A DNA stretch of 64,000 nt, from assembly GCF_000377625.1 (NCBI RefSeq), contig NZ_KB898327.1, forward strand, positions 124,001 through 188,000, given 5' to 3'. The number at the start of each line of letters is the position of its first letter. The first letter of the stretch is position 1. The notes under the pieces are model-generated. The model saw only the letters and a list, made by a program, of their open reading frames with translations. It was not told the DNA's origin and did not search any database. Below are positions 25,971 to 28,632 of the stretch, one piece after another. The translations under genes were made by a program, and so were the position numbers. The stretch comes from Prevotella veroralis DSM 19559 = JCM 6290 (lineage in GTDB: Bacteria; Bacteroidota; Bacteroidia; Bacteroidales; Bacteroidaceae).

Positions 25971-26519
25971 ATGGCAAGTCAATTGACAAAGACACAGCAA
26001 GAGTTTAAAGACATACTGGCTGAATGTAGAGAGCTCTTTGGTAAGAAGCTCCATGATTATGGTGCCTCATGGCGCATTTTACGCCCCTCTTCCCTCACAG
26101 ATCAGCTTTTTATTAAAGCCAAACGCATACGCTCGTTAGAGATTACAGGTGAGAATCTCGTTGGAGAAGGAGTACGCCCCGAATTCATCGCATTGATTAA
26201 TTATAGTATTGTTGGACTGATCCAACTATCCAAGGGCTTTGTTGATAGTGTTGACATCACGCCCGACGAGGCACTCTGTCTCTATGACACCTATGCCAAC
26301 GAAGCCTACGAACTAATGGTAAAGAAGAACCATGACTATGGAGAGGCATGGCGAGATATGCGTGTGAGTAGTTACACAGACCTTATTCTCACTAAGATTG
26401 AACGAATCAAGGAAATCGAAGATCTTAATGGAGAAACACTCGTCAGTGAGGGCATAGATGCCAATTATATGGATATAATGAATTACGCCGTTTTCGGTGC
26501 TATCAAGCTACATGAATAA
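25971..26519 (+). CDS. DUF1599 protein with two tandem copies of the domain
   Basis: A 182-residue protein. The same unit occurs twice: ELFGKKLHDYGASWRILRPSSLTDQLFIKAKRI with LINYSIVGLIQL (about 20-95), and ELMVKKNHDYGEAWRDMRVSSYTDLILTKIERI with IMNYAVFGAIKL (about 105-178). This pattern is DUF1599, which I recall is renamed nucleotide modification associated domain 1 in Pfam. Its activity is not known to me. The gene is first in the operon leading to tpiA; its stop overlaps the start of the next gene. The start is chosen downstream of the -7 box. Confidence 0.85.
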   Translation: MASQLTKTQQEFKDILAECRELFGKKLHDYGASWRILRPSSLTDQLFIKAKRIRSLEITGENLVGEGVRPEFIALINYSIVGLIQLSKGFVDSVDITPDEALCLYDTYANEAYELMVKKNHDYGEAWRDMRVSSYTDLILTKIERIKEIEDLNGETLVSEGIDANYMDIMNYAVFGAIKLHE

Positions 26520-27870
26520 ATTAAAGACGCTATTAGTAAACCTCAGTCGTGCGCTGTTAGCCTTGACGTTTATCTTTTCTGGATTTGTTAAGGCTATTGA
26601 CCCACTAGGTTCGCAATATAAGATTGCGGAATACCTAGAGGCAGTGCAATTATCGGCTTATGTACCCGATTGGGCACAGCTAATGGTGTCGATAGCCCTT
26701 TCTGCCATAGAATTTACACTGGGTGTAATGCTCCTCTTGGCTATCCGCCGTCGATTAGCCAGCAAGATATCCTTGCTTTTCATGGCTGTGATGACAGCCG
26801 TAACATTGTGGTTGACTGTAAGTAATCCGATACAAGATTGTGGTTGTTTCGGAGATGCCATACACCTAACCAACACGCAGACATTTATCAAGAACATTGT
26901 TTTGCTTGTTGCAGCAATCATTCTTACACGCTGGCCTTTACATCAGATGCGCTTCGTTTCAAAGACGAATCAGTGGATAGCCTTCTATTTTACTATCGCC
27001 TTTATCTGTATAGCGTCACTATTGAGTCTTTATCATCTGCCCATCTTTGACTTCCGTCCTTATTATATCGGACAGAACATCAAAAAGGGTATGGAGATTC
27101 CAAAGGGGGCTAAACAAACAACCTATAAGACAACCTTTATCTGTGAAAAGAATGGTGTAACAAAGGAATTCAATGAGAATAATTACCCTTATAATGACTC
27201 TACGTGGGTATTTAAAGATACACATCAAGAGATACTTGAGCAGGGGTATGAACCACCCATACACGATTTCTCTATCACGAACGAACAGACAGGGAACGAT
27301 ATTACGGATAGTATCTTGACCCATAAAGGATATACCTTCTTACTCATAGCTCCTGTATTGGAAATGGCTGACGATAGTAACTTTGGTGATATTGATGCTA
27401 TCTACGAATATGCAAAGGAGAATGGATATGGATTCTACGGCTTGACTGCTAGTACAGATAAAGCTGTACAGCATTGGAGGGACATCACAGGTGCGGAATA
27501 TCCGTTCTATACGACTGACGGCACAACACTAAAAACCATCATTCGTAGTAATCCGGGCTTGGTACTGCTCTACAAAGGTACTATCATCAATAAATGGAGT
27601 CATAACGATTTGCCCAAACAAGCCGAACTTAATGCCCCACTCTCCCTCATTGAAATAGGGCGCGAACCGGCTAATAACACATGGACAAAGATTATGCTCA
27701 TCATCGTGTGCTACATCTTCCCCTTGTCATTCCTTATTGCCGCCGACCGCATTTGGTCGTGGACAAGATGGGTAAGGAAACGTGAAGAGTGGCTCAAACA
27801 AAAGGAAGATTGGGTGAAGCAAAAGGAACAATCAAATAAATTATATCAACTTTTAAAACGTAAAAGACAA
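26512..27870 (+). CDS. BT_3928-type DoxX/MauE-like membrane protein, open in frame into tpiA
   Basis: The N-terminal 453 codons of a 706-codon open frame. LVNLSRALLALTFIFSGFVKAIDPLG and four transmembrane helices (within about 1-160) are the DoxX/MauE-like part, including NPIQDCGCFGDAIHL with a Cys-Gly-Cys motif. A periplasmic domain (FDFRPYYIGQNIKKG, and SFLIAAD helix near 405-425) and a charged tail (KREEWLKQKEDWVKQKEQ) follow. No stop separates it from tpiA. The last codons before the tpiA ATG (27841-27870) are AT-rich, like a ribosome-binding leader. One extra A in the A4 run at 27821-27824 would give ...KGTIK and TAA at 27837-27839. It overlaps the DUF1599 stop. Confidence 0.85.
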
Positions 27871-28632
27871 ATGAGAAAGAAAATCGTAGCAGGTAACTGG
27901 AAGATGAACGAGACCTTGCAGGAAGGTATCGAGCTAGCAAAAGAGATTAACGAGTCACTCAAGGCAGAGAAACCTAATTGTGATGTTGTTATCTGTACCC
28001 CATTCATTCACCTCGCAAGTGTTGCTCAGGTGTTAGATTCAAGCGTTGTTGGACTTGGTGCAGAGAACTGTGCAGACAAGGAGAAGGGTGCTTACACAGG
28101 TGAAGTATCAGCCGCAATGGTAAAGAGCACAGGTGCACAATATGTTATCCTCGGTCACTCTGAACGTCGTCAATACTATGGAGAAACAGCAGAGATCCTC
28201 AAAGAGAAGGTTCAATTAGCACTCGCTAATGGTTTGAAGGTAATCTTCTGCTGTGGTGAGACACTCGAAGAGCGTGAGGCAGAGAAGCAAAACGAGGTAG
28301 TAAAGGCAGAGTTGGAAGGTTCAGTATTCAACCTCTCTGCAGAGGAATGGAAGAGCATTATCTTGGCTTACGAACCAATCTGGGCTATCGGTACAGGTAA
28401 GACTGCTACTTCTGATCAGGCTCAGGAGATGTTGGCTTACATCCGTTCTATCGTTGCAGAGAAGTATGGTAAGGAAGTAGCAGAGGACACTTCTATCCTC
28501 TATGGTGGTAGCTGTAAGGCTAGCAACGCACCAGAGTTGTTTGCTAAACCTGACATTGATGGTGGCTTGATTGGTGGCGCTTCATTGAAGGCAGCTGACT
28601 TCAAGGGTATCATTGATGCTTGGAAAAAGTAA
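27871..28632 (+). CDS. tpiA: triosephosphate isomerase (possibly made as a fusion)
   Basis: Interconverts glyceraldehyde-3-phosphate and dihydroxyacetone phosphate. Read from the ATG at 27871 it is 253 residues, the normal length. MRKKIVAGNWKMNE supplies Asn11 and Lys13, VILGHSERR contains the catalytic His, AYEPIWAIGTGKTAT the catalytic Glu and mobile loop, and LYGGSCKASN and IDGGLIGGASL the phosphate-binding loops. It is in frame with the preceding membrane protein, so either a 706-residue membrane-tethered fusion is made or translation starts internally at 27871. The A-rich stretch before the ATG favours internal initiation. Confidence 0.95.
   Translation: MRKKIVAGNWKMNETLQEGIELAKEINESLKAEKPNCDVVICTPFIHLASVAQVLDSSVVGLGAENCADKEKGAYTGEVSAAMVKSTGAQYVILGHSERRQYYGETAEILKEKVQLALANGLKVIFCCGETLEEREAEKQNEVVKAELEGSVFNLSAEEWKSIILAYEPIWAIGTGKTATSDQAQEMLAYIRSIVAEKYGKEVAEDTSILYGGSCKASNAPELFAKPDIDGGLIGGASLKAADFKGIIDAWKK

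Follow-up and report, generated by a model that had tools for sequence, protein, structure and literature searches.

Triosephosphate isomerase joined in frame to a predicted membrane protein in Prevotella veroralis: a widespread and labile gene fusion, likely with two products

Introduction

Triosephosphate isomerase (TPI) is usually regarded as a soluble cytoplasmic enzyme. In Prevotella veroralis DSM 19559 the gene encoding it, tpiA, continues the reading frame of a membrane-protein gene, with no stop codon between the two. Is this long frame a genuine gene fusion or the trace of an error, and, if genuine, is TPI made as a membrane protein, as a free enzyme, or as both? The locus has been analysed within a window of 64,000 nucleotides (contig NZ_KB898327.1, positions 124,001 to 188,000) and compared with related loci.

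The joined frame and its parts

An earlier note on this DNA had described a 453-codon membrane protein running in frame into tpiA. This is confirmed: 453 codons precede the tpiA ATG at 27871 in a frame of 706 open codons, which is shared by relatives. An alternative GTG start at 26497 would give a fused product of 711 aa. The features of the locus are the following.

26512..28632, + strand: fused ORF, BT_3928-family membrane protein plus TPI, 706 codons with no stop
26512..27870, + strand: BT_3928-family part (BT part), residues 1-453 (NF045576, PF07291, hydropathy, AF2 model)
residues 2-174: MauE-like membrane domain of five helices (PF07291, hydropathy, AF2 model)
27043..27669, + strand: thioredoxin-fold domain, approximately residues 178-386, predicted outside the cytoplasm
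27679..27846, + strand: sixth membrane helix and K/R-rich tail, one predicted helix at residues 390-445, tail predicted cytoplasmic
27821..27824, + strand: A4 run; sister locus L007 differs here by a synonymous substitution, with no difference in junction length
27829..27873, + strand: low-confidence linker, residues 440-454, AF2 pLDDT under 50, likely flexible
27841..27870, + strand: tpiA leader, in frame the linker LYQLLKRKRQ; A-rich, synonymous change strongly lowered in fused relatives
27871..27873, + strand: internal tpiA ATG, present in 124/124 fused loci
27871..28632, + strand: complete TPI, residues 454-706 (PF00121, invariant residues, structure match)

The first part matches the BT_3928 family model NF045576 over its full length (501.1 bits, cut-off 250; profile positions 1-358 of 358, residues 8-368). 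MauE (PF07291) is assigned at 71.8 bits against a cut-off of 27, and DoxX (PF07681), at 20.9 bits, stays below its threshold of 23.6. The domain that follows has the thioredoxin fold, but not the CXXC motif of thiol-disulfide reductases, residues 178-386 of the translation containing a single Cys. Hydropathy peaks again at residues 394-412, and 21 K/R lie within residues 413-489. A PDB sequence search with the BT part returned only two weak matches (E 0.011 and 0.022).

The second part fits the TIM family (PF00121) with 316 bits against a cut-off of 20.1, over positions 1-244 of 245 (residues 457-703), and compares with the B. thetaiotaomicron TPI structure 7rpn at 75% identity and a TMt of 0.95. 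Asn462, Lys464, His549 and Glu621 (fusion numbering), which we take to be the catalytic residues of TPI, are invariant in 41 fused proteins, as is M454, the residue of the internal ATG (41/41). The model for bifunctional PGK-TPI, NF010569, scores 303.5 against a cut-off of 883, and the match is confined to the TPI half.

Taken together, the models predict a protein with six membrane helices, the thioredoxin-fold domain outside, and the TPI barrel in the cytoplasm beyond a flexible linker. The tethering of TPI to the membrane, put forward in the earlier note, thus stands as a prediction drawn from the in-frame junction and from helix and topology models.

Gene neighbourhood

The surroundings of the fused ORF include the following features.

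25942..25949, + strand: TATTTTTG, lying ahead of the DUF1599 gene and fitting the Bacteroidota -7 promoter consensus as given in PMC6847099
25971..26519, + strand: upstream gene with two DUF1599 stretches, overlapping the fused ORF by 8 bases
28706..29395, + strand: downstream gene for a SPOR-domain protein (profile match)

The DUF1599 gene and the fused ORF likely belong to the same operon. The overlap of the end of the former with the start of the latter (26512-26519) suggests translational coupling there too. No + strand match to TAHHTTTG, as might denote a separate tpiA promoter, was found between 27386 and the tpiA ATG; single matches to this motif are weak evidence, since 52 occur in the window against 31 expected. 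No Rfam match at the gathering threshold was obtained in the region 25300-29600. About 245 bases upstream of the DUF1599 gene, 15 bp pair perfectly in a hairpin that is extended by an outer stem (25692-25726, + strand); the surrounding 101 bases fold 3.9 sd better than shuffles, and no other copy of the hairpin arm exists in the window, even when one mismatch is allowed.

Distribution of the fusion

Fusions fill the database matches listed. The best 120 of 8000 scored proteins, own entry included, are all 706 or 712 aa long and carry both domains, and a second search with the Xylanibacter caecicola fusion as query gave both domains in 119 of the 120 matches listed. In an even sample of the family, TIM lies in a frame of more than 600 codons in 42 of the 139 TIM-bearing genomes (141 searched), among which 11 of 14 genomes of the same genus and, overall, 8 of 22 genera are represented. 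The junctions fetched for these loci have a relative of BT_3928 in the same frame. Fusions, each to a BT_3928 relative, were also found in 3 of 135 TIM-bearing genomes from other families of the order, and none of 136 genomes outside Bacteroidales has a TPI frame over 332 codons. Named fused loci include Segatella copri (L113), S. buccae, S. paludivivens, Hoylesella enoeca, H. pleuritidis, Prevotella lacticifex and P. falsenii; named unfused ones P. amnii, Hallella seregens, Segatella baroniae, Bacteroides oleiciplenus and Palleniella intestinalis.

The fused ORF is the only TIM match in the P. veroralis genome, and a single TIM is present in 138 of the 139 TIM-bearing family genomes, all 42 with a long frame included. 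The idea that a second TPI copy freed the fused one to diverge is ruled out by these counts.

The spacer between the sixth membrane helix and the ATG was inspected for stop codons in 89 fused loci (81 distinct): the fused frame has none, whereas the two other frames contain 167 and 193. The count was made on 156 of 172 loci, not deduplicated, 13 lacking the anchor and L002, L003 and L105 being excluded. Because of this contrast, and because the best 120 matches are all fusions, the open junction cannot be ascribed to chance. Sequence comparison thus shows the fusion in the 706-codon frame to be real and conserved, and it carries the only TPI detected in the genome.

Some relatives depart from the common pattern. 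The frame of the fused loci L066-L072 spans only some 640-650 codons; in L067, the one member aligned, about 45 residues are missing beyond the fifth helix, within the thioredoxin-fold domain. In L094 (Prevotella micans) the tpiA frame stops at about 83 codons, possibly by an assembly error or a misread frame. Database names of the fusions vary between 'BT_3928 family protein' and 'triose-phosphate isomerase', and TPI can look missing in annotations because some fusions carry only the former. Among the open-access papers listed by literature searches, none is on a BT_3928-TPI fusion, and the listing on internal starts in fused genes shows nothing on this locus.

Evolutionary lability

The joined state has changed many times. 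By parsimony, a tree built on 618 columns from 247 loci, of which 124 are fused and 123 are not, requires at least 46 changes of fusion state, and at least 39, 35 and 34 if branches under 80, 90 and 95 SH-aLRT are collapsed into soft polytomies, counts limited by gene-tree error and non-random sampling. A smaller tree of 155 loci gave 30 changes. The larger set was obtained from 272 loci by dropping 25 (duplicates, L105, very short TPI), and L094 is not in it; 16 of 172 loci had been removed from the first set as duplicates, and L105, with Ns at the junction, is in neither tree. Full-length search matches were fetched first, so that 124 of 247 is not a prevalence, to which the 42 of 139 genomes of the family sample are nearer.

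With the tree rooted on the outgroup locus L245, near-equal costs put the number of gains at 20 to 33 and that of losses at 13 to 26, and a single gain would demand 59 losses. A two-rate model fits a loss rate of 1.93 and a gain rate of 0.69 per unit branch, and random parsimony tracebacks contain on average 27.7 fused-to-gap and 11.0 gap-to-fused changes; accordingly, the fused state does not look especially stable. The direction of change is uncertain; that change was repeated, as far as the gene tree tells, is not.

Is the joined frame under selection?

According to a first alternative, the missing stop is a harmless accident: the tethered form would have no role, essentially all TPI being initiated internally. 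Several observations fit. State changes are frequent and the fitted loss rate exceeds the gain rate, close relatives without the fusion exist, and the amino acid difference in the linker (0.27-0.32) is not below that in the rest of the BT part (0.26). Yet the spacer behaves otherwise. Of 44 fused pairs, 30 show no change in its length, against 3 of 38 unfused ones; the contrast holds at tree distances under 0.2 (23/25 against 2/10) and of 0.2-0.4 (6/10 against 1/13), and part of it follows from sorting, as fused pairs by definition lack frame-breaking changes. When in-frame outcomes alone are counted (distance 0.1-0.6), the ratios are 19:8 for fused and 1:7 for unfused pairs (p = 0.011). All 107 pairs entered this comparison, with an anchor different from that of the close-pair comparison described below. 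The lack of fused-frame stops in the spacer also speaks against neutrality, as does the scarcity of overlapping arrangements, which dispense with the upstream stop as well: these account for 21 tips against 124 fused, a ratio only indicative because sampling favoured fused loci. The spacer results favour purifying selection on the joined frame for as long as it exists, next to a fitted loss rate above that of gain. Neutral readthrough is a serious alternative, though we think it rather more probably wrong than right.

Selection could also act on translation reaching the tpiA start, through coupling or protection from Rho, and not on the fused protein as such. The recurrence of overlaps of -4 (ATGA) and -26, which among the 21 overlap tips occur 7 and 8 times, is in line with this, and the overlap of the fused ORF with the preceding gene provides a further instance of the kind. 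Coupling, however, predicts no preference of frame, against which the excess of fused over overlap tips speaks, if only indicatively in view of the sampling; moreover, uniform clades grow to 9 tips in the fused state but only to 2 for overlaps. This explanation seems unlikely, without being negligible.

The probable internal start site

The earlier note held that initiation at 27871 would still yield normal TpiA, and the conserved ATG, its A-rich context and the synonymous constraint around it all lend support to this. All 124 fused loci in the tree place an ATG exactly five codons ahead of VAGNWK. According to PMC6847099, Bacteroidota lack Shine-Dalgarno sites, and A at -13, -12, -6 and -3 favours initiation in Flavobacterium johnsoniae, a member of this phylum. 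A is found at these positions in 85, 80, 96 and 80% of the 124 fused loci, and the fraction of A over -15..-1 is 0.70 at the internal ATG, whereas 699 other in-frame ATGs within the BT parts have 0.28. The window itself has A at -13 and -6, and its context is only partly favourable because -12 and -3 are C.

Synonymous change, scored at same-residue codons in 44 non-overlapping fused pairs, is 0.372 in the BT part, falls about threefold in the ten codons before the ATG (0.098 and 0.115), and is 0.120 in the first ten TPI codons. Codons 2-5 and 6-11 of TPI show 0.108 and 0.125 in fused pairs, 0.104 and 0.132 in 34 unfused ones; from codon 22 on, the values are 0.297 and 0.336, respectively. The dip within TPI is therefore equally deep with and without the fusion. 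A residue-matched control reproduces the dip (leader 28/264, BT part 493/1194, TPI 773/3081), the contrast between leader and TPI being borderline for lysine codons alone (p = 0.05). The simplest cause would be a start site still in use, though the constraint on the junction DNA could serve something other than initiation.

These results bear on the view that TPI is made solely as a membrane protein of ~80 kDa, the internal ATG being a relic. Every ribosome finishing the membrane protein would indeed make the fusion, as no stop lies in frame; but a relic would hardly be kept without exception in the fused loci, with its start context and with synonymous constraint undiminished in fused lineages, and we regard this view as very improbable.

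The A-run and the gain and loss of the fusion

The A4 run, the out-of-frame TAA at 27837-27839, which one extra A in the run would bring into frame, and the AT-rich 30 bases before the tpiA ATG (A or T at 24/30 bases of 27841-27870) are as described earlier. The explanation then proposed, a one-base deletion or a sequencing error in the run, does not hold for the window. The sister loci L005 and L007 share the exact junction length and have no stop. L007 does have the five A residues which the earlier note looked for in relatives, without the stop expected to go with them: it reads C-AAAAA-G-AAC where the window reads C-AAAA-GG-AAC, an AAA to AAG difference, both Lys, hence a silent substitution and not an indel. 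Both an error of sequencing or assembly in the A4 run and its phase variation can be dismissed almost outright, since the sisters share the junction and fusions fill the matches listed, even if the run exists, an extra A would put a stop in frame, and one-base differences part some close pairs elsewhere.

The close relative G216 (L199, L265) is unfused by a CAA to TAA change, which creates a stop whose end lies 48 bases ahead of the tpiA ATG, and its 30-base leader is identical to that of the window. Among close pairs (107 pairs from 233 usable loci, 92 with anchors), one-base length differences separate fused from unfused members in, for example, L029/L078, L083/L108 and L031/L127. On the evidence of these alignments, the one-base-change mechanism is right for other lineages, not for the window. 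The fusion is not essential, being absent from many relatives, a close one included.

Two probable products from one gene

All this points to a real, widespread and labile fusion which likely gives two products. The fusion would probably yield a membrane-tethered TPI by readthrough and a free TPI from the ATG at 27871; that cells make both is likely because tpiA keeps, inside the joined gene, its own start codon and start-like surroundings. In the model proposed, the A-rich tpiA leader sits at the end of a membrane-protein gene without a stop codon, and would be translated as a linker, while ribosomes could still load at the tpiA ATG within the fused frame. The readthrough product would be a TPI tethered to the membrane and facing the cytoplasm. 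As TPI is a homodimer, free subunits could pair with tethered ones, so that some of the enzyme would sit at the membrane. The joined state is easily gained and lost through point or one-base changes; since tpiA keeps its own start, it would remain functional in either state.

A bolder proposal is that a large group of Bacteroidales from gut and mouth actively keeps a dual-product gene by which some of their only TPI is anchored to a MauE/thioredoxin-fold membrane protein at its cytoplasmic face, either directly or in mixed dimers, so tying triose-phosphate flux to envelope redox chemistry, with a tether switched in evolution by single-base changes. This we hold to be speculative and, for the present, doubtful.

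In a lineage which includes Segatella copri, the TPI gene lies in frame with a membrane protein of redox type. Its many natural fused and unfused relatives lend themselves to comparing how gene fusions arise, last and break up, and to asking whether glycolytic enzymes gain from placement at the membrane.

Comparison with known systems

Bacteroides species carry separate BT_3928-family and tpiA genes, the same two neighbours in the same order as in the window. Unlike in the window, a stop lies between the genes, and the tpiA leader is non-coding (e.g. L166, B. oleiciplenus, with a gap of 22 bases). The PGK-TIM fusion of Thermotoga maritima was reportedly first studied by Schurig in 1995. In PMC7729029 this protein is a bifunctional enzyme in which, as here, TPI forms the C-terminal end of a longer protein read in one frame; its partner, however, is a soluble glycolytic enzyme and not a membrane protein. 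Eukaryotic TPI-GAPDH fusions, as described in PMC3527533, likewise join TPI to another protein with consequences for its location, but there TPI is N-terminal, the partner is GAPDH, and the predicted target is the mitochondrion.
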